From the NCBI RefSeq assembly GCF_035917275.1, contig NZ_CP108508.1:7316001-7380000 (forward strand): a stretch of DNA of 64,000 bases. The letters run 5' to 3'. The number at the start of each line of letters is the position of its first letter. Within the stretch, counting starts at the first letter, position 1. The translations under genes were made by a program, and so were the position numbers. Positions 1 to 33,590 of this stretch are shown here, piece after piece. Source of the DNA: Streptomyces sp. NBC_01237. GTDB taxonomy: Bacteria > Actinomycetota > Actinomycetes > Streptomycetales > Streptomycetaceae. A model generated the notes under the pieces. That model was not told the origin of the DNA and searched no databases. It worked only from the letters and a program-made list of their open reading frames with translations.

Positions 1-390
1 GAGCCCACCCCGCCCCTCCCAGCCGGTCCGGCGTTTGAGGACGCAACCCTGAGCCCCGGTTCGGGAGGCGCCCACCCCAGCCGGTCCGGCGCTTGAGGAC
101 GGAACCCTGAACCCCGGTTCGGGAGGCGCCCACCCCAGCCGGTCCGGCGTTTGAGGACGGAACCCCGAGCCCCGGCACGGGAGGCGCTCATGGCAGCCGG
201 TCCGGCGCTTGAGGACGGAACCCCGAGCCCTGGCACGGGAGGCGCCCACCCCAGCCGGTCCGGCGTTTGAGGACGGAACCCCGAGCCCCGGCACGGGAGG
301 CGCTCATGGCAGCCGGTCCGGCGCTTGAGGACGGAACCCCGAGCCCCGGTCCGGGAGGCGCCCACCCCAGCCCGTCCGGCGCTTGAGGAC
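1..390. repeat. 58-bp tandem repeat array, 7 units
   Basis: Seven copies of a unit beginning AGCCGGTCCGGCGYTTGAGG start at 21, 79, 137, 195, 253, 311 and 369, an exact 58-bp period. Units 3 and 5 are identical and units 4 and 6 nearly so, so a 116-bp dimer has itself been duplicated. Units alternate between GTTTGAGGAC and GCTTGAGGAC and between flanks CGCCCACCCC and CGCTCATGGC. The last unit is truncated. No convincing gene lies here; the short frames are repeat translations. The core resembles a short dispersed intergenic element common in Streptomyces (from memory). Confidence 0.93.
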
Positions 391-399
391 ACAAAGAAA

Positions 400-436
400 G
401 GGCACGGAGCACGGGACGTACCCGTACTCCGTGCCC
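400..436. terminator. Long hairpin, probable terminator
   Basis: A 16-nt arm at 400-415 pairs with 421-436 with one mismatch around the loop acgta. It follows the repeat array and probably ends transcription entering from the left; it could also back up katA termination from the right. Positions 437-566 contain nothing else I can identify. Confidence 0.7.
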
Positions 437-632: not shown

Positions 633-2090
633 TCAGTCCTCGCGCAGGGCGCGGACGGCCTCCTCCACACGCTTGCCGTAGTCGGCGTCGGCGGCGTGGA
701 AGTGGGCGAGGTTCTTCTCGATCACATCGTCACGGGTGACCTGCGAGAGACCCCCGGCGATGTTGGCGACCAGCCGGCCCTTCTCGTCCTCGGACATCAG
801 CCGGAACAGCTCGCCCGCCTGGAAGAAGTCGTCGTCCTTGGTGTGGGCGGGCGCCTCGTGCGTGCCGGTCCAGCCCTGGACGGCGAGCGGGGCGGCGAGT
901 GCCGCGCCGGTCTGCGCCGGACCGTCGTACGAGTTGGGCTCGTAGTTCTTGTCGTGGCGCGAGCCGTTGCGGGTGGCCATCAGACCGTCGCGGCCGTAGT
1001 TGTCCGCGGTGGCCGTCCGGGGCGCGTTGACCGGGAGGTGGGTGTGGTTGACGCCCAGCCGGTAGCGGTGCGCGTCCGCGTAGGCGAACAGCCGGCCCTG
1101 GAGCATCTTGTCCGGGGAGGGACCGATGCCGGGCACGAAGTTGTTCGGGGAGAACGCGGCCTGCTCGACCTCGGCGAAGACGTTGTCCGGGTTGCGGTCC
1201 AGCACGAGCCGGCCGACCCGCTGGAGCGGGTAGTCGCTGTGCGGCCACACCTTGGTGAGGTCGAACGGGTTGAAGCGGTAGTCCGTGGCTTCCGCGGCCG
1301 GCATGACCTGCACATGCAGCGTCCAGGACGGGTTGACGCCGCGCTCGATGGCCTGGAGCAGGTCAGTCTGGTGCGAGTTGGCGTCCTTGCCGACGAGTTC
1401 CGCGGCCTGGTCGGCGGCGAGGGAACGCACGCCCTGGTTGGTCTTGAAGTGGTACTTGACGAAGAAGGCCTCGCCCTGGGCGTTGGTCCACTGGTAGGTG
1501 TGCGAGCCGTAGCCGTTCATATGACGGTACGAGGCGGGGATGCCGCGGTCGCCCATCAGCCAGGTGACCTGGTGCGTGGCCTCGGGGGCGTGCGCCCAGA
1601 AGTCCCAGACGTTGTCCGGTTCCTGCTTGCCCGTGAACGGGTCGCGCTTCTGCGAGTGGATGAAGTCGGGGAACTTGATCGGGTCCTTGATGAAGAACAC
1701 CGGGGTGTTGTTGCCGACCAGGTCGTAGTTGCCCTCGTCCGTATAGAACTTGAGGGCGAAGCCGCGCGGGTCGCGGACGGCGTCGGCGCCGCCCAGCGAG
1801 TCGGCCACCGTGGAGAAACGTATGAACGTCTCGGTGCGGCGGCCCACTTCGGAGAGGAAGTCGGCGCGGGTGAAGCCGGTGACATCGTCGGTCACCTCGA
1901 AGTAGCCGTAGGCGCCGGAGCCGCGGGCGTGCACCACGCGCTCCGGGATGCGCTCACGGTTGAAGCGGGCGAGCTTCTCAAGGAGGTGCTGGTCCTGGAG
2001 GAGGATCGGTCCACCGACGCCGGCGGTGGCGGAGTTCTGGTTGTCGGCGACCGGGGCGCCTGACTCGGTCGTGAGCACACGCTTAGCCAT
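633..2090 (-). CDS. katA: Monofunctional haem catalase
   Basis: This cytoplasmic enzyme breaks H2O2 down to water and O2. At 485 aa it fits the small-subunit clade of haem catalases. The distal His is H54 in [11 protein letters not shown], the distal Asn is N127/N128 in GNNTPVFF, and the proximal Tyr region is [14 protein letters not shown] near the C-terminal third. The ATG at 2090 has GGAAGG about 12 nt upstream. No Fur-type catR gene lies next to it. Instead its promoter carries the same palindrome as the uricase operon promoter, so its likely job includes removing the H2O2 made by urate oxidase. It stands alone between two hairpins. The family call is certain; the symbol is by homology. 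Confidence 0.97.
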
Positions 2091-2133: not shown

Positions 2134-2176
2134 AGCGTAGGTTCGCCATGAACGACGCGTCAACAGTTTGTTGAAA
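2134..2176 (-). promoter_or_regulatory. katA promoter with TCAACA-N3-TGTTGA operator
   Basis: On the minus strand a -35 box TTGACG (2163-2158) is followed by an 18-bp spacer and a -10 box TACGCT (2139-2134). This predicts a leader of about 37 nt. The palindrome TTCAACAAACTGTTGAC (2175-2159) overlaps the -35. The stretch TTTCAACAAACTGTTGACG differs by one base from the uraD promoter at 6260-6278, in the same register to the -35. Confidence 0.8.
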
Positions 2177-2258
2177 GTGAAGGGTGAGGTTCCGGGTCGC
2201 GGCGGCGCCTGGGCGCGACAGGACAGGTGTCAGCGCCACCGCGACCCGGAGTTCATGG

Positions 2259-2275
2259 GGCCCCGTGACGGGGCC
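2259..2275 (-). terminator. Hairpin after glxR
   Basis: GGCCCC-gtgac-GGGGCC begins 5 bp downstream of the glxR stop codon. It separates the hyi-glxR operon from the katA promoter. Confidence 0.55.
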
Positions 2276-2280
2276 GGGTG

Positions 2281-3174
2281 TCAGACCTGCGAGCCGGAGA
2301 GGCGCTCGACGGAGCGCAGCAGGGCCGAGTGGTCCAGGCCGCCGTCACCCTGCGCGCGCAGGGAGGCGACCAGTTGGGCGACGACGGCGCCGACGGGCAG
2401 CGCGGCACCGACATTGCGGGCGGCGTCCGTGACGATCCCCATGTCCTTGTGGTGCAGATCGATCCGGAATCCCGGGGCGAAGTCGCGCTTGAGGAAGTTG
2501 TCCTTCTTACGGGTCAGTACGGTCGAACCGGCCAGACCGCCGTTGAGGACGTCGAGCGCGGCGGCGAGGTCGACGCCGGACTTCTCCAGGAAGACCACGG
2601 CCTCGGCACACGCCTGGATGTTGACCGCGACGATCAGCTGGTTGGCGGCCTTCACGGTCTGGCCGGACCCGTGCGGGCCGCAGAGCACGATCGTCCTGCC
2701 CAGCGCCTCCAGCAGGGGCCGGGCCGTGTCGAAGTCGGCCTGCTCGCCGCCGACCATGATCGAGAGAACGGCCTCGACCGCGCCCGCCTCGCCGCCGGAC
2801 ACCGGGGCGTCCAGCACGCGAAATCCCTTGTCCAGGGCGTTCTTCGCGAGGTCCACGGAGGTCTGCGGGGTGATCGAGGACATGTCGATCAGCAGCGCGC
2901 CGCGCTTCGCGTTCTCCAGGATGCCCTCGGGGCCGTACGCGATGGCCTCGACCTGCGGGGAGGCGGGCACCATCGTGATGACGACATCGGCGTCCGCGAC
3001 GGCGTCGGCGATCGAGGGGGCGCCCTTGCCGCCGGCCGCGACCAGGCGGTCGATCTTGTCCTGCTCCAGGGTGTACCCGGTGACGTCGTAGCCGGCCTTG
3101 ACCAGGTTCTCGGACATGGGGGAGCCCATGATGCCGAGCCCGATCCACGCAACCTTGGGGAGGTTGTTGCTCAT
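2281..3174 (-). CDS. glxR: 2-hydroxy-3-oxopropionate (tartronate semialdehyde) reductase
   Basis: A beta-hydroxyacid dehydrogenase that reduces tartronate semialdehyde to D-glycerate with NAD(P)H, the second step of the glyoxylate carboligase route. The Rossmann motif GLGIMGSPM is at residues 12-20, the substrate loop DAPVSGGEAG at 123-132 with S126, and the catalytic Lys K175 in GQTVKAANQL. The length of 297 aa is typical. It follows hyi by 49 bp on the same strand and should share its promoter. Glyoxylate carboligase, expected nearby, is not in this window. Other beta-hydroxyacid substrates cannot be excluded from sequence. Confidence 0.92.
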   Translation of the reverse strand: MSNNLPKVAWIGLGIMGSPMSENLVKAGYDVTGYTLEQDKIDRLVAAGGKGAPSIADAVADADVVITMVPASPQVEAIAYGPEGILENAKRGALLIDMSSITPQTSVDLAKNALDKGFRVLDAPVSGGEAGAVEAVLSIMVGGEQADFDTARPLLEALGRTIVLCGPHGSGQTVKAANQLIVAVNIQACAEAVVFLEKSGVDLAAALDVLNGGLAGSTVLTRKKDNFLKRDFAPGFRIDLHHKDMGIVTDAARNVGAALPVGAVVAQLVASLRAQGDGGLDHSALLRSVERLSGSQV

Positions 3175-3223
3175 GAGGGTGCCTTCCTGAAAAACGGGTG
3201 TACGTGAGGGAGTTCGGCCGCCC

Positions 3224-4045
3224 CTACCGGGGGAGCCACCCGAAGGACTCGGCGCTGGGACGGTCGCCCGGCTTGTACTCCAGGCCGACCCGTCCCGCGT
3301 AGCCGGCCTCGGTCAGCTCGTCGAGGAGCCGCTCCAGCGGGAGCGAGCCGGTGCCCGGCGCGCCGCGGCCCGGGTTGTCGGCGATCTGGACGTGGCCGGT
3401 CTTCCCGGCGTACGTCTTGATCACCTGGCTCAGGTCCTCGCCGTTCATCGACAGGTGGTAGAGGTCCAGCAGGAACTTCGCGTTCCCCAGGCCCGTCGCC
3501 GCGTTGACCCTGTCGACGATCTCGATCCCGGCCGGTGCGCTCACCAGTGGATAGAGCGGTGACTCCGGCTTGTTCAGGGTCTCGATCAGCAGGACCGCCC
3601 CGATCCGGTCGGCCGCACGGGCGGCCAGTACCAGGTTCTCCAGGGCGAGTTCGTCCTGGACGGCAGGGTCCACGCCGTCGACGCGGTTGCCGTACAGCGC
3701 GTTGAGCGCGGTGCAGCCCACCGAGGCGGCGAACGCCGCCGCCACCTCGATATTGGCGCGGAAGCGGTCCGACTCGGCGCCGGGCACGGAGAGCGCGCCG
3801 CGGTCGGGGCCGGGCAGCTGTCCGGCGTAGAAGTTCAGTCCCACCAGCTGGGTGCCGGCATCGTCGAGCGCCTTCTTGAGGGCGTCGAGCTCCGCCTGCG
3901 GCGGGGTGGGGGTCTCGATCCAGGGCCACCACAGCTCGACCGCCGTGAAGCCTGCCGCGGCGGCTGCCGCGGGGCGCTCCAGGAGCGGGAGTTCCGTGAA
4001 GAGGATCGAAAGGTTCACATCGAAGCGCTGGTCCGGGTATCCCAT
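3224..4045 (-). CDS. hyi: Hydroxypyruvate isomerase
   Basis: A 273-aa TIM-barrel protein of the xylose-isomerase-like family. It should interconvert hydroxypyruvate and tartronate semialdehyde, feeding the reductase encoded just downstream. Visible family segments are GFTAVELWWPW near residues 32-42, VLLIETLNKPESPLYPL with its metal-binding Glu, FLLDLYHLSMNGED, GHVQIADNPGRGAPGTG and VGLEYKP. The ATG at 4045 has AAGGAG 13 nt upstream. The promoter carries two TTCC-N7-GGAA palindromes, one of which overlaps the start of transcription and the ribosome binding site, so the gene is probably repressed without inducer. Confidence 0.92.
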   Translation of the reverse strand: MGYPDQRFDVNLSILFTELPLLERPAAAAAAGFTAVELWWPWIETPTPPQAELDALKKALDDAGTQLVGLNFYAGQLPGPDRGALSVPGAESDRFRANIEVAAAFAASVGCTALNALYGNRVDGVDPAVQDELALENLVLAARAADRIGAVLLIETLNKPESPLYPLVSAPAGIEIVDRVNAATGLGNAKFLLDLYHLSMNGEDLSQVIKTYAGKTGHVQIADNPGRGAPGTGSLPLERLLDELTEAGYAGRVGLEYKPGDRPSAESFGWLPR

Positions 4046-4062
4046 GAGGGGTTCGGCGCTCC

Positions 4063-4104
4063 TTCCGTATTGCGGAAGTTAGTTTCTGCTTAACGGAAGA
4101 TTGC
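4063..4104 (-). promoter_or_regulatory. hyi-glxR promoter with two tandem TTCC-N7-GGAA operators
   Basis: Read on the minus strand, TTCCGTTAAGCAGAA (4098-4084) and TTCCGCAATACGGAA (4077-4063) start 21 bp apart, about two helical turns. By alignment with the malate synthase promoter, the -10 is TAACTT (4081-4076), two bases after the first site. The -35 is a poor GCAATC (4104-4099). The first site fills the spacer and the second covers the predicted transcription start. The layout is seen directly; the binding protein is inferred (IclR candidate at 32509). Confidence 0.7.
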
Positions 4105-4260
4105 CCGGCGGGTGGCGAGGCTGTCAAGGGGGTGCCCGAAATTCGGGCCGGCCGACGGCACGCCCGGCCGGTGCCGGGGCCCCTTGCCGTCGGGGGCGGG
4201 GCGGGCCAGGGTGGCTGACGCATCCGAAGCAGCCACCGCCCCCCCCACGAGGTGCCTCGC

Positions 4261-5436
4261 ATGAACCACACCGCCACCAGCCGCCGCAGCCTCCTCGGAG
4301 CCCTGCTCGCGGGCGCCGTCCTGTCCGCCGCCCCCACGGCGCCCGCCCGGACCGCCGCCCCCGGCGGGCCCGCCCCCGTGCCGCCGGGCGCCCCACGCGC
4401 CATCCGGCCGCTCCTCCTCGGTACGTACACCTCGGCCGAGGGAGGCGGCACCGGCATCGGCACGGCCACGTACGACACCACCACCGGGGCGATCGCCACC
4501 GGCCCCGTGATCACGGGGGTCGACAACCCCTCGTACCTCGCCCCGCACCCTTCGGGCAGCACCGTCTACGCCGTGGACGAGCAGGACCGGGGTGCCGTGA
4601 CGGCCGTCGCGCTGGCGCCGGACGGCGCCCACCGGGTCCTCGGCAGCCGGGACACCGGCGGCGCCGGCCCCACCCACCTCTGCGTGCACCCCACCGGCGA
4701 GTGGCTGCTCAGCGCGAACTACACCTCGGGCAGCGTCGCCGTGCATCCCCTCGCCGCGGACGGTTCCATCGGCGAACGCACCGACCTCGTCACGCACACC
4801 TCGCCGCCGCCGGGACCGGGTCAGAACGGGCCGCACGCCCACCAGATCGTCACCTCGCCCGACGGGGGTCATGTCCTCGCCGTCGACCTGGGCAACGACA
4901 CCGTGTACACCTACCGCCTGGACACGACCGCCGGAACGCTCACCGAGGTCTCCCGCGCGGCGCTGAAACCCGGGGCCGGGCCGCGCCACCTCACTTTCCA
5001 TCCGGGCGGCCGCTTCGCCTACCTGGCGTGCGAGCTGGACAACACCGCCGTCGTCTGCGGATACGACCCGGTCACCGGAACCCTCACCCCGGGAACCGGC
5101 CAGTCCACCGGGACCGGCCCCGGGACCAGCTATCCGGCGCAGCTCCTGGTCACCGCCGACGGGGCCTTCGCCTACCTGGCCAACCGGGGCCACAACAGCC
5201 TCACCCGCTACGCCGTCGAGCAGGACGGGGCGGCGCTCCGGCTGCTGGACACCGTGCCCGTCGGTGGCGACTTCCCCCGTCAGATCGCCTTCTCCCCGGA
5301 CGGCGCCCTGCTCTTCGCCGCCAACCAGCGCTCGTCCACCGTCACCGTCTTCCGGGTGGACCGGGCCGACGGTGCTCTGAGCGGCGCGGGTCGGCCGGTG
5401 GCGGCTCCGGTCGCGGTCTGCGTGCTGCCGCTCTGA
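4261..5436 (+). CDS. Tat-exported lactonase-family beta-propeller protein
   Basis: A 391-aa protein of the lactonase, 7-bladed beta-propeller family (6-phosphogluconolactonase/YbhE-like). The N-terminus has a twin-arginine signal (SRRSLLG, then a hydrophobic stretch and APA), so it is exported. Repeated blade motifs include YTSAEGGGTGIGTATYDTTTG, PSGSTVYAVDEQ, DGGHVLAVDLGNDTVYTYRLD, PGGRFAYLACELDN and PDGALLFAANQRSS. The ATG at 4261 was preferred to the GTG at 4252 because the signal peptide then starts normally; the ribosome site is weak. An extracellular location argues against a pentose-phosphate role, and the substrate is unknown. Confidence 0.85.
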   Translation: MNHTATSRRSLLGALLAGAVLSAAPTAPARTAAPGGPAPVPPGAPRAIRPLLLGTYTSAEGGGTGIGTATYDTTTGAIATGPVITGVDNPSYLAPHPSGSTVYAVDEQDRGAVTAVALAPDGAHRVLGSRDTGGAGPTHLCVHPTGEWLLSANYTSGSVAVHPLAADGSIGERTDLVTHTSPPPGPGQNGPHAHQIVTSPDGGHVLAVDLGNDTVYTYRLDTTAGTLTEVSRAALKPGAGPRHLTFHPGGRFAYLACELDNTAVVCGYDPVTGTLTPGTGQSTGTGPGTSYPAQLLVTADGAFAYLANRGHNSLTRYAVEQDGAALRLLDTVPVGGDFPRQIAFSPDGALLFAANQRSSTVTVFRVDRADGALSGAGRPVAAPVAVCVLPL

Positions 5437-5443
5437 TGTCGCT

Positions 5444-5467
5444 GTGACCGCCCGCCCGGCCGGTCAC
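5444..5467. terminator. Hairpin after lactonase gene
   Basis: GTGACCG (5444-5450) pairs with CGGTCAC (5461-5467) around a 10-nt loop, 7 bp past the lactonase stop codon. The stem is short. Confidence 0.45.
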
Positions 5468-5544
5468 CAGCGGGTTATGGTCATGGCCGAGCCGCGCAGG
5501 AGCAGGTCGGCGGCGAGCACACGCGAGGACAACAGGGAGGCACA

Positions 5545-5796
5545 GTGCGCTTGAGGGTGGAGTTCACCACCGAGCCCTTCGATCTCGACGAGGCGCCCGC
5601 TCACGCGGTGGTGGCCCGTGAGGTCATCCAGACCGCCGAACTCGACGCCGTGGACGTCGGCCCGTTCGGGAACACGGCCGAAGGGGGAGCGGACCAGGTG
5701 CTCACCGCGGTGGACTCCCTGCTGCGCAAGGCCCTGGCCTCCGGCGCCACCCGGGTCTCGCTCCAGGTCAATGTGATCGGGGAGGGCGCACAGTGA
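5545..5796 (+). CDS. Thiamine-binding (MTH1187/YkoF-like) small protein
   Basis: An 83-aa protein starting at GTG with GGGAGG just upstream. The sequence runs MRLRVEFTTEPFDL, then VGPFGNTAEGGADQVLTAVDSLLRKAL and ATRVSLQVNVIGE, matching the small UPF0045/MTH1187 fold, several members of which bind thiamine or hydroxymethylpyrimidine. Its stop overlaps the GTG start of the next gene by 4 bp, so the two are translationally coupled. It could supply a ligand-sensing partner for the HTH protein downstream; that is inference only. Confidence 0.72.
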   Translation: MRLRVEFTTEPFDLDEAPAHAVVAREVIQTAELDAVDVGPFGNTAEGGADQVLTAVDSLLRKALASGATRVSLQVNVIGEGAQ

Positions 5797-6194
5797 CCAC
5801 ATCGGCGGACCACCCCCCTCTGGACCCGGTGGATCACCCCCTGATCGCCGCGGTGAAGCCGCTCGTCGACGCCATGGGTGCCGAGCTGCTGGGGCCCGAA
5901 CAGGCGCAGACCGATGATGTGGTGCTGTCCTGGGAGGGGCGGGACGTCGTCGCGGTCCGTCTGCCCCAGCTCTCGGACTCGCTCGACCACATCCTCGCCG
6001 CGATGGAGCGACGGCACGGGATGCCGCTCGCCGACCTGGACCGTCGGACGAAGCAGTCCGTCGTACGGACTCTGGAGGCACGTGGTGCCTTCTCCGTGCG
6101 CCATGGGGTGGAGACCGTGGCGGGCGCCCTGGGGGTCAGCCGCTTCACGGTCTACAACTACCTGAATAGGGAAAATGCCGCCAAGGGTGAGTAG
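5793..6194 (+). CDS. YheO-type HTH transcriptional regulator
   Basis: A 133-aa protein with a C-terminal helix-turn-helix at about residues 84-126 (LDRRTKQSVVRTLEARGAF, then VETVAGALGVSRFTVYNYLNR). This is characteristic of the DNA-binding half of YheO-like regulators. The N-terminal 80 residues form a short domain (VVLSWEGRDVVAVRLPQLSDSLDHIL), not a full PAS domain. It overlaps the upstream gene by 4 bp, ends in a strong terminator, and sits immediately before the uraD-uraH-uricase operon. That makes it a candidate binder of the TCAACA-N3-TGTTGA palindrome, without direct evidence. Confidence 0.78.
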   Translation: MTTSADHPPLDPVDHPLIAAVKPLVDAMGAELLGPEQAQTDDVVLSWEGRDVVAVRLPQLSDSLDHILAAMERRHGMPLADLDRRTKQSVVRTLEARGAFSVRHGVETVAGALGVSRFTVYNYLNRENAAKGE

Positions 6195-6211
6195 TTGAGC
6201 GAACACCGAGG

Positions 6212-6245
6212 AAAGCCGCCGTCCGGATGCCGGGACGGCGGCTTT
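6212..6245 (+). terminator. Strong intrinsic terminator
   Basis: A perfect 13-bp stem, AAAGCCGCCGTCC (6212-6224) with GGACGGCGGCTTT (6233-6245), has an 8-nt loop and is followed by cttcg. It insulates the uraD promoter that begins 15 bp later. Confidence 0.9.
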
Positions 6246-6259
6246 CTTCGTTCGCGATA

Positions 6260-6302
6260 TTTCAACAAAGTGTTGACGTGATGTTGTCGAGGGCGTTAGC
6301 TA
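6260..6302 (+). promoter_or_regulatory. uraD-uraH-uricase promoter with palindromic operator
   Basis: A -35 box TTGACG (6273-6278), an 18-bp spacer and a -10-like TAGCTA (6297-6302) predict a leader near 40 nt. The palindrome TTCAACAAAGTGTTGAC (6261-6277) overlaps the -35. The 19 bases TTTCAACAAAGTGTTGACG match the katA promoter at 18 positions. A second TGTTG half-site follows at 6282. Confidence 0.8.
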
Positions 6303-6349: not shown

Positions 6350-6856
6350 GTGACTTCGAGCTCCACACCGGGCCTGGCCCGGTTCAACACCCTGGCGGAC
6401 AGCGAGGCCACCGCCGTGCTGCACGAAGTGTGTGCCGGCGCCGCCTGGGGGAGGGCCATCCTCTCCCGGCGCCCGTACGCCACAGCCGACGCCCTTTTCG
6501 CCGCGAGCGACGCCGCCATGGCCGAGCTCACCGCCGCGGATCTGGCCGAGGCGATGGCCGGTCACCCGCCGATCGGCCGCCCGAAGCCCGGGGACCCTAC
6601 CTCCTCCCGTGAACAGCGGGGGATGGCCGGCGCCTCCGAGGAGCTCAAGACCGAGATGCTCGAACTGAACCTGGCCTACCAGGAGCGCTTCGGACATGTC
6701 TTCCTGATCTGCGCCACCGGCGCCACCGGTGAACAGATGCGCGACGCGGTCAGGACCCGGATCGGGAATCCGCCCGAGCGGGAGCGTGAGAACGTGCGCA
6801 CCGAGCTGGGCAAGATCAACCGCATCCGGCTGGCCCGTCTCGTACAGGACTCTTGA
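6350..6856 (+). CDS. uraD: OHCU decarboxylase
   Basis: 2-oxo-4-hydroxy-4-carboxy-5-ureidoimidazoline decarboxylase, the last enzyme of urate to (S)-allantoin conversion. From the GTG at 6350 (GGAGG 5 nt upstream) it is 168 aa. H72 in MAGHPPIGRPK is the catalytic His, followed by SSREQRGM and the C-terminal ELGKINRIRLARL typical of the family. An in-frame extension back to 6227 is rejected because it would run through the promoter and terminator. It leads an operon with uraH (21 bp on) and uricase, ordered in reverse of the pathway. Confidence 0.93.
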   Translation: MTSSSTPGLARFNTLADSEATAVLHEVCAGAAWGRAILSRRPYATADALFAASDAAMAELTAADLAEAMAGHPPIGRPKPGDPTSSREQRGMAGASEELKTEMLELNLAYQERFGHVFLICATGATGEQMRDAVRTRIGNPPERERENVRTELGKINRIRLARLVQDS

Positions 6857-6876
6857 GAACAAGGAGAGTGACGGTC

Positions 6877-7266
6877 TTGAGTACCGACACCACCGCATCG
6901 GTGTCCACGCACATCCTGGACACCAGCATCGGCCGTCCGGCCGCGTCCGTCGCCGTGTCCCTCGCCGCCCGCGGTGGCGCCGGCGCGGAGTACGTGACGC
7001 TCGGCGCGTCCGCCACCGATGCCGACGGGCGCTGCAAGGACCTGCCGGCGCTGCCGGAGGGCACCACCCACGTACGTCTCGTGTGCGACACCGGGACGTA
7101 CTTTTCCAAGAAGCAAGCCGAGGCGCAGCAGGACGCCCCCCGCGTAAGGGACAGCGGTGCGTTCTTCCCGGAGGTGGCGATCGCGTTCGCCGTCGTGCCG
7201 GGCGAGCACTATCACGTACCGCTGCTGCTCAACCCGTTCGGCTACTCCGTTTACCGAGGGAGCTAG
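6877..7266 (+). CDS. uraH: 5-hydroxyisourate hydrolase
   Basis: A transthyretin-like enzyme that hydrolyses 5-hydroxyisourate, the product of uricase, to OHCU. The start chosen is TTG at 6877 because AAGGAG at 6861-6866 is 10 nt upstream; the in-frame GTG at 6868 is too close. The 129-aa product begins with STHILDTSIGRPA and ends with the family signature YRGS. ATDADGRCKDL and HYHVPLLLNPFGYSVYRGS complete the fold. Uricase starts 5 bp after its stop codon. Confidence 0.94.
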   Translation: MSTDTTASVSTHILDTSIGRPAASVAVSLAARGGAGAEYVTLGASATDADGRCKDLPALPEGTTHVRLVCDTGTYFSKKQAEAQQDAPRVRDSGAFFPEVAIAFAVVPGEHYHVPLLLNPFGYSVYRGS

Positions 7267-7271
7267 CAGAC

Positions 7272-8195
7272 ATGCCCACGATTCTCGGCCAGAACCAGTA
7301 CGGCAAAGCAGAGAACCGCGTCGTCAGGATCACGCGGGACGGCGACACCCACCACATCAAGGACCTGAACGTCTCGGTCGCCCTTTCCGGCGACATGGAC
7401 GATGTGCACTACTCCGGCTCCAACGCCCATGTCCTGCCGACCGACACCACCAAGAACACGGTGTACGCGTTCGCCAAGGAGCACGGCATAGAGTCCGCCG
7501 AACAGTTCGGCATCCACCTCGCCCGGCACTTCGTGACCTCGCAGGGCCCGATCAAGGTCGCGCGGATCAGGATCGAGGAGTACGCCTGGGAGCGCATCGC
7601 GACCTCCGACGGCAACTCCCGGTTCATCGGCGCCGACGAGGTCAAGCACTCCTTCGTCCGCAAGGGCCAGGAGACCCGCACCACCCAGATCACCTACGAC
7701 GGCGAGAACTTCGAGGTCATCTCGGGTCTCAAGGACCTCACGGTGATGAACTCGACCAACTCCGAGTTCTGGGGCTACGTCAAGGACCAGTACACGACGC
7801 TCAAGGAGGCGTACGACCGCATCCTCGCGACCGAGGTCTCCGCCAGGTGGCGGTACAACTGGACCAGCGACGAGCAGCGGATGCCGAACTGGGAGAAGTC
7901 CTACGAGCAGGCGCGCAAGCACATGCTCCAGGCATTCGCCGAGACGTACTCCCTCTCCCTCCAGCAGACCCTGTACCAGATGGGTTCGCGCATCATCAAC
8001 AGCCGCAGCGAGATAGACGAGATCCGCTTCTCGCTGCCCAACAAACACCACTTCCTGGTGGACCTGGAGCCGTTCGGCCTCAAGAACGACCATGAGGTCT
8101 ACTTCGCGGCGGACCGGCCGTACGGCCTGATCGAGGCCACCGTGCTCCGGGACGGCACAGCGCCGCAGATCCCGGTCGACATGACCAACCTCTGA
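7272..8195 (+). CDS. pucL: Urate oxidase (uricase)
   Basis: A cofactor-free cytoplasmic enzyme that oxidises urate with O2 to 5-hydroxyisourate and H2O2. The 307-aa length is standard for one-piece uricases. Recognisable segments are GQNQYGKAENRVVRI with the catalytic Lys near residue 11, LPTDTTKNTVYAFAKEHGI with the catalytic Thr, KDLTVMNSTNSEFWGYVKDQYTTL, and SLPNKHHFLVDLEPFGLKN. The H2O2 produced is the obvious reason for katA to share this operon's promoter element. ATG start 5 bp after uraH. Confidence 0.96.
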   Translation: MPTILGQNQYGKAENRVVRITRDGDTHHIKDLNVSVALSGDMDDVHYSGSNAHVLPTDTTKNTVYAFAKEHGIESAEQFGIHLARHFVTSQGPIKVARIRIEEYAWERIATSDGNSRFIGADEVKHSFVRKGQETRTTQITYDGENFEVISGLKDLTVMNSTNSEFWGYVKDQYTTLKEAYDRILATEVSARWRYNWTSDEQRMPNWEKSYEQARKHMLQAFAETYSLSLQQTLYQMGSRIINSRSEIDEIRFSLPNKHHFLVDLEPFGLKNDHEVYFAADRPYGLIEATVLRDGTAPQIPVDMTNL

Positions 8196-8263: not shown

Positions 8264-9664
8264 ATGGCACAGCCTGCAACGGGGCCGGCAGAAGGCCCAT
8301 GTTCCGCCCCACCGACCGCTGCCGGTAAGGCAGTTCACCCGGTGGACGAGAAGCTTCCCCCCTCGCGGCTCGTCCCCGCCGCACTCCAGCACATCGCCGC
8401 CATGTACGCGGGCGTCGTCACCCCTCCACTGATCATCGGCCAGGCCGTCGGCCTGGACCCGGCCGGCATGACCCGCCTCATCGCGGCGAGTCTGCTCATC
8501 GCCGGACTCGCCACCGTCCTGCAGACCCTGGGTGTCGGAGCCTTCGCCGGGAACCGGCTGCCGTTCGTCAACGCCGCCTCCTCCGCCGGGATCGCGCCGA
8601 TGCTCGCCATCGCCGAGACCAGCGCCACCGGGCACCAACTCCCCGCGATATACGGGGCGGTGCTCGTCGCCGGAGTCTTCTGCCTGGCCGTCGGGCCGTT
8701 CTTCGGGAGACTGCTGCGGTTCTTCCCGCCGCTCGTCACCGGCGTCGTCATCACCCTCATCGGCGTCACGCTGATGCCGGTACCCGTCGCGTGGGCGCAG
8801 GGCGGCGACAGGAGTGCCGCCGACTTCGGGGCCATGAAGTATCTGGCCCTCGCCGCCTTCACCCTGACCGTGATCCTGCTCATCCAGCGCTTCGGGCGCG
8901 GTTTCGTCAAGCAAGTCGCCCTGCTCGTAGGCATGTTGGTCGGCACCTTGGCAGCGATCCCGTTCGGGCTCGCCGATTTCTCCGCGCTGAAGTCCGCACC
9001 GCTCGCCGCCCTCCCCACCCCCTTCGCCTTCGGAGCCCCCGAGTTCAGGCCCGCGGCGATCCTCTCCCTGTGCATCGTCATGCTGGTCCTGATGACGGAG
9101 TCCTCCGCCGGCATGCTGGCCCTGGGCGAGATCTGCGAACGGCGCACCGACGGCCGCACCATCACCCGCGGCCTGCGCACCGACGGCATCGCCACCCTCC
9201 TCGGCCCCGTCTTCGGGGGCTTCCCGACCAGCGCCTTCGCACAGAACGTCGGCGTCGTCTCGCTGACCGGAGTGCGCAGCCGCTACGTCGTGGCGACCGC
9301 GGGCGGTGCCCTGCTCGTCCTGGGCGTCTTCCCCGTCCTCGGCGCGGTCGTCTCGCTCGTGCCGATGCCCGTACTCGGCGGCGCCGGCATCGTCCTGTTC
9401 GGCTCGATCGCGGTGAGCGGTATCCGTACGCTCTCCGAAGCCGGCCTCGACGACAGCTCCAACATCATCCTGGTCGCGGTGGCGCTCGGCGCGGGCATCA
9501 TCCCGCTCGCCGCACCCGCCTTCTACGCGGGGTTCCCCTCCTGGGCGCAGACCGTGCTCGGCTCCGGAATCAGTGCCGGGGCGCTGGTCGCGGTCCTGCT
9601 CAACCTGTTCTTCCACCATCTCGGCACCCACAGCCGCAGCGCTGTGGCACTCAAATCCTCCTAG
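8264..9664 (+). CDS. NCS2 nucleobase:cation symporter (urate/xanthine type)
   Basis: A 466-aa integral membrane permease of the nucleobase-cation-symporter-2 family with about 12-14 hydrophobic segments. Family signatures are the N-terminal LQHIAAMYAGVVTPPLI, the TM8 region ESSAGMLALGEICERR and the QNVGVVSLTGVRSRYV motif. It is a close paralogue of the gene at 11436, with which it shares the lead-in HPVDE-LPP. Between uricase and an 8-oxoguanine deaminase it should import urate, xanthine or oxidised purines. Which ligand each paralogue takes cannot be read from sequence. Confidence 0.92.
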   Translation: MAQPATGPAEGPCSAPPTAAGKAVHPVDEKLPPSRLVPAALQHIAAMYAGVVTPPLIIGQAVGLDPAGMTRLIAASLLIAGLATVLQTLGVGAFAGNRLPFVNAASSAGIAPMLAIAETSATGHQLPAIYGAVLVAGVFCLAVGPFFGRLLRFFPPLVTGVVITLIGVTLMPVPVAWAQGGDRSAADFGAMKYLALAAFTLTVILLIQRFGRGFVKQVALLVGMLVGTLAAIPFGLADFSALKSAPLAALPTPFAFGAPEFRPAAILSLCIVMLVLMTESSAGMLALGEICERRTDGRTITRGLRTDGIATLLGPVFGGFPTSAFAQNVGVVSLTGVRSRYVVATAGGALLVLGVFPVLGAVVSLVPMPVLGGAGIVLFGSIAVSGIRTLSEAGLDDSSNIILVAVALGAGIIPLAAPAFYAGFPSWAQTVLGSGISAGALVAVLLNLFFHHLGTHSRSAVALKSS

Positions 9665-9709
9665 GGTCCTGCCGTGCCCACATCGCCGATGAGAGAAGAA
9701 GGAAGCATC

Positions 9710-11098
9710 ATGGCAGCTCCGGCAGGGCCTCAGCGCATCGTCATCGAGAACTGTTCGATCGCGACCGTCGACGCCCACGACACCGAGTACGCCTCGGGGT
9801 ACATCGTCGTGGCGGGCAACCGCATCGAGTCCATCGGCGCGGGCAGGGCACCGGAGGGTCTCGCCGATGTCGTACGCCGCGTCGACGGCACCGGACATCT
9901 CGTGACGCCCGGACTGGTCAACACCCATCACCACTTCTACCAGTGGATCACCCGCGGCCTGGCGACCGACCACAACCTCTTCGACTGGCTCGTCGCGCTG
10001 TACCCGACCTGGGCGCGCATCGACGAGCCGATGGCCCGCGCCGCCGCGCAGGGGTCCCTCGCGATGATGGCCAGGGGCGGTGTCACCACCGCGATGGACC
10101 ACCACTACGTCTACCCCGAGGGCTCCGGCGACCTCTCCGGAGCCATCATCGGCGCCGCCCGCGACATGGGCGTACGCTTCACCCTCGCCCGCGGCTCCAT
10201 GGACCGCAGCGAGAAGGACGGCGGACTGCCGCCGGACTTCGCGGTCGAGACCCTGGAGGGCGCGCTCACCGCCACCGAGGCGACCATCGACGCGCACCAC
10301 GACGCCTCTTTCGGCTCGATGACCCAGATCGCCGTCGCGCCCTGCTCACCGTTCTCCGTGTCGACCGAACTGATGCGGCAGGGAGCCGAGCTGGCCCGGC
10401 GCCGCGGCGTACGGCTGCACACCCACGGTTCGGAGACCGTCGAGGAGGAGCAGTTCTGCAAGGAACTGTTCGGGATGGGCCCGACCGACTACTTCGAGTC
10501 GACCGGCTGGCTCGGCGACGACGTGTGGATGGCGCACTGCGTCCACATGAACGACTCCGACATCGCCGCCTTCGCCCGCACGGGAACGGGCGTCGCCCAC
10601 TGCCCGTCCTCCAACGCCCGCCTCGCCGCGGGCATCGCCCGGGTCCCCGACATGCTCGCCGCGGGCGTCCCGGTCGGCCTCGGCGTCGACGGCACCGCCT
10701 CCAACGAGTCCGGCGAACTCCACACCGAGCTGCGCAACGCCCTGCTCGTCAACCGCCTCGGCGCCCACCGCGAGAAGGCCCTGAACGCCCGTCAGGCACT
10801 GCGCCTGGGTACGTACGGTGGCGCCCAGGTCCTGGGCAGGGCCGGTCAGATCGGCTCGCTGGAGGTCGGCAAGCTGGCCGACCTGGTGCTCTGGAAGCTG
10901 GACACCCTGGCCCACGCCTCCATCGCCGACCCGGTGACCGCGCTCGTCTTCGGCGCCGCGGCCCCCGTCACCCTCTCCCTCGTCGACGGCAAGCCGGTCG
11001 TCGAGGGCAACCACCTGATCACGGTGGACGAGGACGCGATCGCCCGCGTCACCCGCGACGAGGCCAGACGCCTCGCGCAGATCGCCGCCGGAGCCTGA
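9710..11098 (+). CDS. 8-oxoguanine deaminase / amidohydrolase
   Basis: A 462-aa metal-dependent amidohydrolase. The first metal-binding motif is NTHHHFYQWITRGL, then HTHGSE, HCVHMNDSD and DGTASNESGEL. The pattern HHFYQW-TRG-ATDHNLFDWL is that of 8-oxoguanine deaminases (8-oxoG to urate), which fits a position beside uricase and two purine permeases. Guanine deaminase and hydroxyatrazine-hydrolase-like enzymes are relatives, so the exact substrate is inferred. ATG at 9710 is chosen for the GAAGGA ribosome site; an upstream in-frame GTG at 9674 has none. Confidence 0.87.
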   Translation: MAAPAGPQRIVIENCSIATVDAHDTEYASGYIVVAGNRIESIGAGRAPEGLADVVRRVDGTGHLVTPGLVNTHHHFYQWITRGLATDHNLFDWLVALYPTWARIDEPMARAAAQGSLAMMARGGVTTAMDHHYVYPEGSGDLSGAIIGAARDMGVRFTLARGSMDRSEKDGGLPPDFAVETLEGALTATEATIDAHHDASFGSMTQIAVAPCSPFSVSTELMRQGAELARRRGVRLHTHGSETVEEEQFCKELFGMGPTDYFESTGWLGDDVWMAHCVHMNDSDIAAFARTGTGVAHCPSSNARLAAGIARVPDMLAAGVPVGLGVDGTASNESGELHTELRNALLVNRLGAHREKALNARQALRLGTYGGAQVLGRAGQIGSLEVGKLADLVLWKLDTLAHASIADPVTALVFGAAAPVTLSLVDGKPVVEGNHLITVDEDAIARVTRDEARRLAQIAAGA

Positions 11099-11119
11099 CG
11101 CTCCGCTAAATCCCCCGAC

Positions 11120-11227
11120 CGGCCGGCCGAGGGGGACGGCCCTCGACCGGCCGCCGTGGACCCGAGCGGGGTCCGCGGCAGCCGGTCCGCGGGGCGCACA
11201 CCCCAATGTGTGCGCCCCGCGGACCGG
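11120..11227. terminator. Two strong hairpins after the deaminase gene
   Basis: The first has 14-nt arms at 11120-11133 and 11140-11153 (one mismatch), 22 bp past the stop codon. The second is a perfect 20-bp stem, 11182-11201 with 11208-11227, around the 6-nt loop cccaat. The rest of the 337-bp gap to the next start holds only a short direct repeat of AGAGCCGCACCACC (11335 and 11353) and the ribosome site; I saw no clear promoter. Confidence 0.78.
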
Positions 11228-11435
11228 TGATGAACGCTGCCCGCACGACCTCGGCACACCCCCGCCGGCACCCCCCATGAGCACCCGCGCCCGCGGCGAC
11301 GCCCGCACCGGCGCGAGGGCCGCACCCTCCCGTGCAGAGCCGCACCACCTGTGAGAGCCGCACCACCGCACCACGTCGCCCCACCTCCCTGACACCCACG
11401 TCCCCGACGACGTGTACCCGACTGGAGGAACCGCT

Positions 11436-12857
11436 GTGGCCGCCAAGCCCAGGTTTCGCAAGGACGCAGTCGCAGGATCCGACCGGAAGCACCCGGTCGA
11501 CGAAACACTCCCACCTCTGAAGATGTTCACCAGCGGCCTCCAGCACGTGGCCGCGATGTACGCCGGAGTGGTGGCACCGCCCATGATCGTGGGGCCCGCC
11601 GTGGGTCTCACCGCCAAGGAGACCGCCTTCCTGATGGGGGCGAGCCTGTTCACCGCGGGCATAGCCACCCTCCTGCAGACCCTCGGCTTCTGGCGCATCG
11701 GCGCCCGGCTGCCGTTCGTCAACGGAGTCTCCTTCGCCGGGGTGACCCCGATGGTGGCGATAGGCAAGGACCGGGGCCACGACGGGATCGCCGTGATCTT
11801 CGGCGCGATCATCGTCGCGAGCGTGCTCGGCTTCGTACTCGCCCCGTACTTCGGCAAGTTGGTCAGGTTCTTCCCGCCCGTCGTCACCGGCACCGTCATC
11901 ACCCTGATCGGTGTCTCGCTGCTGCCGGTCGCCTTCAACTGGTCCCAGGGCGGCAACGCCACGGCCGACGACTACGGTTCGATGACCAACATCATCATGG
12001 CCGCGGGCACACTCCTGATCGTGCTGGCGCTGCGCAAACTGCTGCGCGGATTCCTCCAGCAGATCGCGATCCTGCTCGGCCTGGTCATCGGGACCCTGAT
12101 CGCCATCCCCGTCGGCATCACCGACTTCGGCGCCATCAAGGACGCCGAACTGGTGGGATTCCCCACGCCGTTCCACTTCGGCGCCCCGCAGTTCGAGATC
12201 GCGGCCATCATCTCGATGTGCATCGTCATGCTGGTCTGCATGACCGAGTCCACCGCGGACATGCTGGCCCTCGGGAAGATCGTCGGCCGGCCGGCGGACG
12301 AGCGGACCATCGAGGGCGGTCTGCGCGCCGACACCCTGGGCAGCGCCATCAGCCCACTGTTCAACGGTTTCATGTGCAGCGCCTTCGCCCAGAACATCGG
12401 CCTGGTCGCGATGACCAAGGTCCGCAGCCGGTTCGTCGTCGCCGCGGGCGGCGGCATCCTCATCGTGCTCGGCCTGGTGCCGGTGGCCGCGTCCGTCATC
12501 GCGCTGGTTCCGCTGCCCGTGCTCGGCGGCGCCGGCATCGTGCTGTTCGGCTCGGTCGCGGCGAGCGGCATCCAGACGCTGGCCACCGCCGCGCTGGAGA
12601 AGGGCGAGAACGCGCTGATCGTGGCCGCCGCCGTGGGCATAGGCCTGATACCGATCGCCGCACCGCAGTTCTACCACGCCTTCCCCCAGGACCTGCTGGT
12701 CGTCCTGGACTCGGGCATCTCCACCGGATGCGTCGTGGCGATCCTGCTCAACCTGGCCTTCAACCACCTGGGCCGCAAGCCGGAGGGGATGGAGGAGGAA
12801 GAGACCCGGAGCGGTGAGCACGTGGTCCCGGCGGCGGCCGGGGCGGGCGTCCACTGA
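11436..12857 (+). CDS. NCS2 nucleobase:cation symporter, second copy
   Basis: A 473-aa NCS2 permease starting at GTG 11436 with GGAGGA 9 nt upstream. It is collinear with the 8264 permease, sharing LQHVAAMYAGVVAPPMI, LPFVNGVSFAGVTPM, ESTADMLALGKI and QNIGLVAMTKVRSRFV. The two copies flank the deaminase gene, which suggests duplication followed by specialisation for different purines. It differs in the CMTESTAD segment and has a longer charged C-terminus. Two strong hairpins upstream suggest its own promoter. Confidence 0.91.
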   Translation: MAAKPRFRKDAVAGSDRKHPVDETLPPLKMFTSGLQHVAAMYAGVVAPPMIVGPAVGLTAKETAFLMGASLFTAGIATLLQTLGFWRIGARLPFVNGVSFAGVTPMVAIGKDRGHDGIAVIFGAIIVASVLGFVLAPYFGKLVRFFPPVVTGTVITLIGVSLLPVAFNWSQGGNATADDYGSMTNIIMAAGTLLIVLALRKLLRGFLQQIAILLGLVIGTLIAIPVGITDFGAIKDAELVGFPTPFHFGAPQFEIAAIISMCIVMLVCMTESTADMLALGKIVGRPADERTIEGGLRADTLGSAISPLFNGFMCSAFAQNIGLVAMTKVRSRFVVAAGGGILIVLGLVPVAASVIALVPLPVLGGAGIVLFGSVAASGIQTLATAALEKGENALIVAAAVGIGLIPIAAPQFYHAFPQDLLVVLDSGISTGCVVAILLNLAFNHLGRKPEGMEEEETRSGEHVVPAAAGAGVH

Positions 12858-25430: not shown

Positions 25431-27050
25431 TCAGGCCAGCTGCTCGTACGCGGGGAGGGTGAGGAAGTCCGCGTAGTCCTGGTCCAGGGAGACCTGGAGC
25501 AGGAGGTCGTGGGCCTGCTGCCACTTGCCCGCGGTGAAGGCGGTCTCGCCGACCTCCCGGCGGATCGCGTCGAGTTCCTCGGCCGCGACCGTGCGGGCCA
25601 GCTCCGCCGTGGCGTGCTCGCCGTTCTCGAAGACCACGTCCGCGTTGATCCACTGCCAGATCTGCGAGCGCGAGATCTCGGCGGTGGCGGCGTCCTCCAT
25701 CAGGTTGAAGATGGCGACCGCGCCCATGCCGCGCAGCCACGCCTCGATGTACCGGATGCCGACCGCGACGGCGTTGCGCAGGCCGTCGTACGTGGGGCGG
25801 GCGTCGAGGGTGTCGATCGCGATCAGGTCGCCCGCCGCCACCGAGACGTCCTCGCGCAGGCGCTCCTTCTGGTTCGGCTTCTCGCCCAGGACCGCGTCGA
25901 AGGAGGCCATGGCGATGGGGACCAGGTCGGGGTGGGCGACCCAGGAGCCGTCGAAGCCGTCGTGGGCCTCGCGGTCCTTGTCCGCCTTGACCTTCTCGAA
26001 GGCGACCTTGTTGACCTCGGCGTCGCGGCGGGACGGGATGAACGCCGCCATGCCGCCGATGGCGTGCGCCCCGCGCTTGTGGCAGGTGCGGACGAGGAGT
26101 TCGGTGTACGCCCGCATGAACGGGGCGGTCATCGTCACGGCGTTGCGGTCCGGGAGGACGAACTTCGTTCCGCCGTCACGGAAGTTCTTGACGATGGAGA
26201 ACAGGTAGTCCCAGCGGCCCGCGTTCAGCCCGGAGGCGTGGTCGCGCAGCTCGTAGAGGATCTCCTCCATCTCGTACGCCGCGGTGATCGTCTCGATCAG
26301 GACGGTCGCACGGACCGTGCCCTGCGGGATGCCGACGTAGTCCTGGGCGAAGACGAAGATGTCGTTCCAGAGGCGGGCCTCCAGGTGCGACTCCGTCTTC
26401 GGCAGATAGAAGTACGGCCCCTTGCCCAGGTCGATGAGGCGCTGGGCGTTGTGGAAGAAGTAGAGGCCGAAGTCGACCAGCGCGCCGGGCACCGGGGCTC
26501 CGTCGAGCTGGAGGTGACGCTCGTTCAGGTGCCATCCGCGCGGGCGGGTGACGACCGTCGCGAGTTCGCCGGCGGGCCTGAGGGCGTACGACTTGCCCGA
26601 CTTCGGGTCGGTGAAGTCGATGGCGCGGGTGTAGGCGTCGATCAGATTCAGCTGGCCGAGGACCACGTTCTCCCACGTGGGGGCGGACGCGTCCTCGAAG
26701 TCGGCGAGCCAGACCTTGGCGCCCGAGTTGAGGGCGTTGATGGTCATCTTGCGGTCGGTCGGACCGGTGATCTCCACCCGGCGGTCGTCGAGTGCGGCCG
26801 GGGCCGGTGCGACCTTCCAGGATTCGTCCGCGCGGACCGCCGCCGTCTCGGGCAGGAAGTCCAGCGTGGAGGTACGGGCGATCTCGGCGCGGCGCTCGCC
26901 GCGCCGGGCGAGCAGCTCGTCACGGCGCGGGGTGAACTGCCGGTGCAGCTCGGCCACGAACGCGAGGGCCGCGTCGGTCAGGACCTCTTCCTGCCGGGGC
27001 AGGGGCTCGGCATCGACGATGGCCAGCGGGGACGGCGCTGGTGCGGACAT
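25431..27050 (-). CDS. aceB: Malate synthase A
   Basis: Condenses glyoxylate with acetyl-CoA to malate. At 539 aa it is the short, AceB-type (MSA) form. Clear family blocks are INALNSGAKVWLADFEDASAPTWEN, LPKTESHLEARLWNDIFVFAQDYVGIPQGTVRATVLIET, RWDYLFSIVKNF, GGMAAFIPSRRDAEVN and GFDGSWVAHPDLVPIA. Its promoter carries both purine/glyoxylate palindromes, so besides acetate growth it should serve glyoxylate from allantoate and ureidoglycolate breakdown. It lies between the urate and allantoin gene blocks. No isocitrate lyase is present in the window. Confidence 0.97.
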   Translation of the reverse strand: MSAPAPSPLAIVDAEPLPRQEEVLTDAALAFVAELHRQFTPRRDELLARRGERRAEIARTSTLDFLPETAAVRADESWKVAPAPAALDDRRVEITGPTDRKMTINALNSGAKVWLADFEDASAPTWENVVLGQLNLIDAYTRAIDFTDPKSGKSYALRPAGELATVVTRPRGWHLNERHLQLDGAPVPGALVDFGLYFFHNAQRLIDLGKGPYFYLPKTESHLEARLWNDIFVFAQDYVGIPQGTVRATVLIETITAAYEMEEILYELRDHASGLNAGRWDYLFSIVKNFRDGGTKFVLPDRNAVTMTAPFMRAYTELLVRTCHKRGAHAIGGMAAFIPSRRDAEVNKVAFEKVKADKDREAHDGFDGSWVAHPDLVPIAMASFDAVLGEKPNQKERLREDVSVAAGDLIAIDTLDARPTYDGLRNAVAVGIRYIEAWLRGMGAVAIFNLMEDAATAEISRSQIWQWINADVVFENGEHATAELARTVAAEELDAIRREVGETAFTAGKWQQAHDLLLQVSLDQDYADFLTLPAYEQLA

Positions 27051-27185: not shown

Positions 27186-27226
27186 ATAGTAGTTTCCTCA
27201 TGGTGGAAGTTCAATGGTTTGTTGAT
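27186..27226 (-). promoter_or_regulatory. aceB promoter with both purine/glyoxylate palindromes
   Basis: On the minus strand a -35 TTGAAC (27214-27209), a 17-bp spacer and a -10 TACTAT (27191-27186) form a good housekeeping promoter. TTCCACCATGAGGAA (27208-27194) fills the spacer. TCAACAAACCATTGA (27225-27211) overlaps the -35 in the same register as at katA and uraD. The predicted leader is about 130 nt. Confidence 0.8.
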
Positions 27227-32508: not shown

Positions 32509-33309
32509 TCAGCCGGCCGAGCCGCTGCTCGCCAGTGCCGTCGAGAGTTCCTTCGCGACCTGCTGGAGGATCGGCACGATCCGCTCCGTCGCCGTCTCCG
32601 TCACCCGTCCCGCCGGGCCCGAGATGGAGATCGCGGCCGAGGTGGGGGAGTTGGGCACGGACACGGCCAGGCAGCGGACCCCGATCTCCTGCTCGTTGTC
32701 GTCCACCGCGTAACCGGCCCTGCGCACCTGCTCCAGCGCTTCGAGGAAGCCGTCGGCGGTGGTGATCGTCTTCTCGGTGGCGGCCGGCATCCCGGTGCGC
32801 GCGAGCAGCGCCCGTACCTCGTCGGCGGGCGTGTTCGCGAGCAGTGCCTTGCCCACCCCCGTGGAGTGGGGGAGCACCCGGCGGCCCACCTCGGTGAACA
32901 TGCGCATCGAGTGCTTGGAGGGCACCTGGGCGACGTACACGATCTCGTCGCCGTCGAGCAGCGCCATGTTCGCCGTCTCGCCGGTCTCCTCGACCAGGCG
33001 CTGGAGGTACGGGCGGGCCCAGGTGCCGAGCAGCCGGGACGCGGACTCGCCGAGCCGGATCAGGCGCGGGCCGAGCGCGTAGCGGCGGTTGGGCTGCTGG
33101 CGTACGTAACCGCAGACGACCAGCGTGCGCATCAGCCGGTGGATGGTGGGCAGCGGAAGCCCGCTGCTCGCGGAGAGCTCGCTCAGCCCGACCTCGCCCC
33201 CGGCGTCGGCCATCCGCTCCAGCAGATCGAAGGCGCGCTCAAGGGACTGCACCCCACCGCTGGAACCGGTGGGCTTGGAGTCGGATGTGCTGGCGTGGGA
33301 CGACGGCAC
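32509..33309 (-). CDS. allR: IclR-family regulator of allantoin genes
   Basis: A 266-aa regulator. The N-terminal winged HTH is GVQSLERAFDLLERMADAGGEVGLSELSASSGLPLPTIHRLMRTLVVCGYVRQ. A GAF-like effector domain follows (MALLDGDEIVYVAQVPSKHSMRMF, PHSTGVGKALLAN, AVDDNEQEIGVRCLAVSVPN). GTG 33309 is chosen because AAAGGA lies 8 nt upstream; a longer frame to 33459 has no ribosome site. It is divergent from allB-alc, as AllR-type repressors often are, so it probably senses allantoate or glyoxylate. It is my main candidate to bind the TTCC-N7-GGAA sites. Confidence 0.88.
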   Translation of the reverse strand: MPSSHASTSDSKPTGSSGGVQSLERAFDLLERMADAGGEVGLSELSASSGLPLPTIHRLMRTLVVCGYVRQQPNRRYALGPRLIRLGESASRLLGTWARPYLQRLVEETGETANMALLDGDEIVYVAQVPSKHSMRMFTEVGRRVLPHSTGVGKALLANTPADEVRALLARTGMPAATEKTITTADGFLEALEQVRRAGYAVDDNEQEIGVRCLAVSVPNSPTSAAISISGPAGRVTETATERIVPILQQVAKELSTALASSGSAG

Positions 33310-33494
33310 GTCAACGGTCCTTTCGAAGCGGAAGGCAAGGCAGCAGCCTACCGGGCTGTTCCTGATCGGCCCACTGCTCCCGGTGCGGCGTCCTTGCCGG
33401 TCAGAGCCTGTTTTGTCCTGGTGCCGACGTTCGGGCCCAAGGTGCGGCGAGGGCGCCACTGTTCCATGCTACGTTCCGCCCTCCGAAATTTGCC

Positions 33495-33590
33495 TTCTAC
33501 TTTGTGGAAATCTCCAGTCGAGGCAACAGGGCGGGCGGGGTCTTGACGGAGCGGATTCCCGAGTGAAGACTCCTTCAACAGTTCGTTGAA
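33495..33590. promoter_or_regulatory. allR/allB intergenic operators
   Basis: TTCTACTTTGTGGAA (33495-33509) is a TTCC-N7-GGAA type palindrome; in minus orientation it agrees with the hyi site TTCCGTTAAGCAGAA at 11 of 15 bases. TTCAACAGTTCGTTGAA (33574-33590) is a TCAACA-N3-TGTTGA type site. A -35 TTGACG (33543-33548) with a weak -10 AAGACT 17 bp on would put the allB start point inside the second palindrome. The rest of the 301-bp gap shows nothing more. Confidence 0.7.

Follow-up and report, generated by a model that had tools for sequence, protein, structure and literature searches.

Why should a catalase gene and a uricase operon have almost the same promoter sequence? The question is raised by a 64,000-nucleotide stretch of the genome of Streptomyces sp. 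NBC_01237 (contig NZ_CP108508.1, positions 7,316,001 to 7,380,000 of the forward strand; the window, in which positions below are counted unless a locus is named). It carries the catalase gene katA (633-2090, minus strand; PF00199 Catalase) and, on the plus strand, uraD for OHCU decarboxylase (6350-6856; TIGR03180 and NF010372), uraH for hydroxyisourate hydrolase (6853-7266; TIGR02962) and the uricase gene (7272-8195; TIGR03383), the last three with matches above the cut-offs of the models. The original prediction was that a common regulator acts on a near-identical operator in both promoters. Our analysis indicates that this operator is a 17-base palindrome, TTCAACA-N3-TGTTGAA, of a purine-to-urea regulon, and, judging from the sequence comparisons, we lean slightly towards an HTH_22 protein encoded directly 5' of uraD as the most likely one to bind it.

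A palindrome shared by purine genes

The 19-mer of the katA promoter, TTTCAACAAACTGTTGACG, is read on the minus strand from 2176 to 2158 (core palindrome 2159-2175), and that of the uraD promoter, TTTCAACAAAGTGTTGACG, on the plus strand from 6260 to 6278 (core palindrome 6261-6277). As predicted, the two are identical at 18 of 19 bases, in a common register: both end in the -35-like hexamer TTGACG (6273-6278 on the uraD side), from which a spacer of 18 bp leads to a -10-like hexamer (TAGCTA at 6297-6302 for uraD, TACGCT at 2139-2134 for katA). We infer that these hexamers are true -35 and -10 boxes. The end of the operator lies 71 bp from the start taken here for uraD and 67 bp from that of katA.

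In a scan of the 10.19-Mb genome, TTTCAACAAASTGTTGACG was found in two copies only, those of katA and uraD, while the reversed control gave none; under a simple base-composition model about 1e-6 copies per genome are expected by chance for one such 19-mer, and about 1e-4 if one mismatch is allowed. With up to three mismatches, TTCAACANNNTGTTGAA had 6 matches in the window vs. 0.11 expected from shuffled sequence, and four sites in the whole genome were within one mismatch of it vs. one for the reversed control. Two of the four are the katA and uraD sites. The third (33574-33590, plus strand) lies in the gap between the AllR-like gene described below and allB, the allantoinase gene (33611-34954, plus strand; TIGR03178 above cut-off), downstream of a possible promoter and 20 bp 5' of the start assumed for allB. 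The fourth (L024:6052-6068) is found 61 bp 5' of the GTG of a urease operon; the allB and urease sites are placed unlike those of uraD and katA. The claim of a common operator was upheld in this way, yet the pairing of katA with uricase proved too narrow, as the operator also precedes allantoinase and urease genes here and further purine genes in relatives.

Conservation was examined in 80 named loci, the best 80 of 478 confirmed uricase relatives; nearly all are titled Streptomyces, and close relatives are included, so that the loci are not independent. The uraD operator was present in 80/80 (best match within about 350 bp; one mismatch in 79, two in one). The katA promoter could be scored in 46 of the 80 loci, katA being outside the fetched flank in the other 34, and the operator was present in all 46 (one mismatch in 45, two in one). 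Among 290 control regions (48 glxR, 52 hyi, 80 hth, 80 uraH and 30 gcl, the last being scorable in 30/80 loci), one reached three mismatches and none was lower. All 126 uraD and katA best matches start with TTCAACAAA, and a single mismatch is typical, namely the final C (80/80 for uraD, 45/46 for katA), which creates the -35-like hexamer TTGAC-. Loss of the palindrome from the orthologous promoters of related species had been named beforehand as an outcome that would speak against the prediction; in the named relatives the palindrome was retained. A separate set of promoters had been chosen by the palindrome itself, which makes conservation of its arms a matter of construction, and this set was not used. 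The operator in the allR-allB gap was present in 29 of 30 loci, these being the best 30 of 194 AllR matches in the genus; in the remaining one, G158, the 60 kb read contain no allB. Taken together, we hold it nearly certain that this shared palindrome is a genuine, working operator.

The candidate regulator and its rivals

The gene directly 5' of uraD (5793-6194, plus strand; hth below) encodes a 133-amino-acid protein that matches PF13309 HTH_22 (E 8e-20, 71.1 bits vs. a cut-off of 29.6); its other neighbor has a weak Thiamine_BP match. The structure prediction (mean predicted local distance difference test score 80.7) gave a small alpha-beta N-terminal part, which is short (60 residues) and unassigned, and a helical C-terminal DNA-binding part. 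RFTVYNYLNR, the end of the helix-turn-helix, is identical in 17/17 aligned HTH_22 proteins, including that of G244, a genome of another family. The protein has no cysteine, which makes a thiol-based peroxide switch unlikely.

In 199 genomes of the genus we found the HTH_22 protein in 190, AllR in 194 and at least one operator in 194, with a reversed-control match in 25. Every one of the five genomes with no site (G043, G113, G135, G186 and G192) carries AllR and is without HTH_22. Fisher tests against the presence of sites, uncorrected for kinship, gave p values of 5e-8 for HTH_22 and 1.0 for AllR. Two HTH_22-negative genomes, G050 and G158, have single matches that look like background, and the HTH_22-positive G156 and G010 have only background-like matches; when the four were recounted as having no site, p became 6e-10. 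Individual inspection covered G050, G120, G158 and G187 among the nine HTH_22-negative genomes and only a few of the 190 positive ones. In a sample of the class (296 genomes, 28 of the genus and 268 from outside it), HTH_22 was detected in 26, namely 25 of the genus and G244, and in none of the other non-genus genomes. At 23 of these 26 loci a site with one mismatch separates hth from uraD or uricase, and at one (L254) a site with two mismatches does so; the remaining two (L245, L249) have no uricase operon adjacent.

On these comparisons, the HTH_22 gene is the better-supported candidate for the regulator relative to the AllR-like gene. It would bind the palindrome, probably as a dimer, and would repress by covering the promoter, as the overlap of the operator with the promoter elements suggests. 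A rising product of purine breakdown would make the protein release the operator, and uricase, allantoinase and urease would then be made together with the catalase that removes the hydrogen peroxide (H2O2) formed by uricase. We judge it about an even chance that this protein is the dedicated repressor of the purine-to-urea regulon across Streptomyces. The genes under it would be those for uricase, allantoinase, urease and the detoxifying catalase, joined in some species by a xanthine permease gene, by a cyclophilin-like gene next to cydAB and by a DUF6986 aldolase-like gene.

In one published S. coelicolor comparison, SCO4972 (xanthine dehydrogenase), SCO6209, SCO6247 and SCO6248 were raised together (PMC6629963), which fits such a regulon. 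The S. coelicolor counterpart of hth would be, by gene order, SCO6208, which is listed as a putative transposase in PMC3897704. Our literature search, limited to open-licence PMC papers, found none that describes this operator or gives SCO6208 a regulatory role.

Several observations weigh against the HTH_22 protein as the binder or against the proposed co-regulation. G187 carries the operator at uraD and, weakened to two mismatches, at allB, and G120, an assembly of 950 contigs, carries it in front of allB and of a DUF6986 gene; no HTH_22 gene was found in either. The background-like matches of G156 and G010 mean that a count of 190 of 190 HTH_22 genomes with a site is generous. A search for uricase in 16 chosen genomes found it in 10, and in four of the five genomes with no site it was not detected; the sites may therefore have been lost with their target genes, and these genomes may be one lineage. 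No operator was found before hth itself, and hence no sign of autoregulation. Finally, passages of PMC4991794 describe a fall of SCO6209-6211 in S. coelicolor under oxidative stress, report no rise of catalases and propose SenR as a regulator at SCO6209; these data give no support for co-expression with katA under that stress.

The first reading of the data, suggested by the site in the allR-allB gap, was that AllR binds the operator; the genome comparison demoted it to a rival. The AllR-like IclR-family regulator is encoded beside allB (32509-33459, minus strand; PF01614 and PF09339). It scored 127.5 bits with the NCBIfam AllR model, under the cut-off of 406, and the true start of its gene is probably downstream of the start of the open reading frame. 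Its S. coelicolor counterpart is reported to have been described, by Navone in 2015, as the regulator of allantoin pathway genes. AllR would be released by a breakdown product, e.g., allantoate or glyoxylate, and a citing paper states that binding of AllR to DNA is weakened by allantoic acid (PMC11438217). The operator in the allR-allB gap, both here and in the 29 loci mentioned above, argues for AllR, as do its occurrence in 194/199 genus genomes and in G244 and its presence together with sites in G187 and G120, where HTH_22 was not detected. Yet AllR is present in all five genomes with no site, including G192, which has retained AllR, a diverged allB and uricase and has neither hth nor the site. 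Conversely, AllR was not detected at E 1e-60 in five genomes, of which G073, G130 and G176 have hth, the operator and uraD one after another, G073 and G130 being fragmented assemblies; of the other two, G168 was left unscored and G050 is 82% complete. Moreover, the purine operator is absent from G186 and G043, where AllR lies beside aceB (malate synthase) and a different palindrome, TTCC-N7-GGAA, stands before aceB. We consider AllR unlikely, though not negligible, as the protein binding the purine operator.

A third regulator, encoded away from these genes, could also bind the operator, HTH_22 being merely a co-inherited neighbor, as co-occurrence cannot separate a binder from a linked gene. 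The sites of G187 and G120 would be explained by such a protein, and SenR would be one already proposed at SCO6209, though the site printed in PMC4991794 differs and is GC-rich. We regard this as unlikely, and slightly less probable than AllR, since the linkage of hth, operator and uricase holds even in G244, the only one of the 268 non-genus genomes in which HTH_22 was found. That the likeness reflects nothing but a shared -35 element or recent copying is very improbable: the last six bases do form an ordinary -35-like hexamer, but none of the 80 uraD and 46 katA best matches has lost the left arm outside it, the placement differs at allB and urease, and the chance expectation is low.

Extent of the regulon and a second palindrome

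We examined 20 further stretches around sites in genus genomes for adjoining gene families. The uraD or katA sites were recovered in three (L227, L228 and L229); in L220 the site stands behind glxR at a contig end and the gene is probably katA, and L211 has allantoinase. Urease genes adjoin the operator in four stretches (L215, L217, L218 and L223) and a xanthine permease in L221, while the site of L226 is inside a gene and is probably background. Cytochrome bd oxidase genes were observed behind the operator in six stretches (L210, L212, L213, L214, L216 and L219), five of which have a divergent cyclophilin-like (PF04126) gene. A DUF6986 gene (HpcH/malyl-CoA-lyase-like) was found behind the operator in three stretches (L222, L224 and L225) and also at L263; its position suggests a role of the DUF6986 family in purine or glyoxylate metabolism. 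Outside the genus, G244 has operators before uricase, xanthine dehydrogenase and a sodium:solute symporter gene. The pattern was matched in 118/296 genomes of the class; beyond the genus these matches are largely background, because matches to the reversed control are also common there. Of the non-genus places examined, that of G244 is real, and L208 (G380) has a creatininase gene nearby, with no uricase-pathway gene recognized near the site. In the window itself, an amidohydrolase gene is located between two Xan_ur_permease genes (8264-12857) directly 3' of uricase, and the three are likely to serve as a unit for uptake and deamination of purines.

Besides katA, the genome carries two catalase genes of its family, and a Fur-family gene is divergent from the one at L275. 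The suggestion that the common regulator replaces the usual Fur-type repressor of catalase was not borne out by this; katA is instead an additional catalase that carries the purine operator. No Fur-like gene was recognized beside katA in the open reading frame lists of both flanks, of which only some frames were scanned with hidden Markov models. Downstream of katA (window 1-400), we observed GC-rich repeats with the unit GCCGGTCCGGCG(T/C)TTGAGGA.

The palindrome TTCC-N7-GGAA, a proposed AllR site, is set apart from the purine operator. In the window it occurs before hyi-glxR (4063-4077, plus strand) and before aceB (25431-27050, minus strand), at 27194-27208 of the plus strand, and elsewhere in the genome before gcl, the glyoxylate carboligase gene (L023:10061-10077, in the region L023:10040-10077). 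Five of 100 window shuffles also gave at least two matches. An alternative pattern, TTTCCG-N3-TGCGGAAA, was searched in the genome and rejected as not specific (20 forward matches vs. 7 in the control); the hyi and aceB promoters are better described by TTCC-N7-GGAA. It is probably the site of AllR or of another glyoxylate regulator, and, given the aceB promoters of G186 and G043, AllR is more likely to use this palindrome, at the glyoxylate genes gcl, hyi-glxR and aceB. The related TTCTACTTTGTGGAA is found at 33495-33509 inside the allR-allB gap, so that allB may answer to both types of palindrome. Two further arrangements were seen. A degenerate purine operator with three mismatches (27210-27226) abuts TTCC-N7-GGAA before aceB, and L168 has a similar composite. 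In G244 (L206:13140-15706), the genes of malate synthase and of an AllR ortholog diverge, with ATTCCGTATCATGGAAC, of the TTCC/GGAA kind, between them.

Relation to known systems and significance

The window protein shares PF13309 HTH_22 with YheO-like regulators such as Cj1387c, which consist of PAS_6 and HTH_22 (PMC4519771); deletion of cj1387c is reported to have raised the product of an adjacent gene, as expected of a repressor. In contrast to these, the window protein has no PAS family among its Pfam matches up to E 1, although filters may drop weak matches, and its gene adjoins uricase genes instead of an L-PSP (Cj1388/RidA-like) gene. AllR has an overlapping target pathway and is encoded beside allB, but its presence does not follow the operator across genomes. 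The E. coli AllR motif KTTGGAAWAWTWTTCCAAC, as given in PMC8222616, is unlike TTCAACA-N3-TGTTGAA. Control of catalase by CatR or Fur likewise employs a dedicated regulator, with the difference that no Fur-like gene was recognized beside katA. HucR-type MarR repressors control uricase; they too are dedicated uricase repressors, while the HTH_22 protein had no MarR match up to E 1.

If the proposal is true, purine breakdown in Streptomyces gains a defined operator together with a regulator overlooked by annotation, and an enzyme that makes peroxide would be wired to its own catalase. Two palindromes would be set apart within one pathway, one for the purine part and one for the glyoxylate part, and the little-known DUF6986 and cyclophilin-like genes would be linked to purine metabolism. 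Uricase is a drug enzyme that can be made by Streptomyces (PMC11555846), so derepressed strains would be of use.

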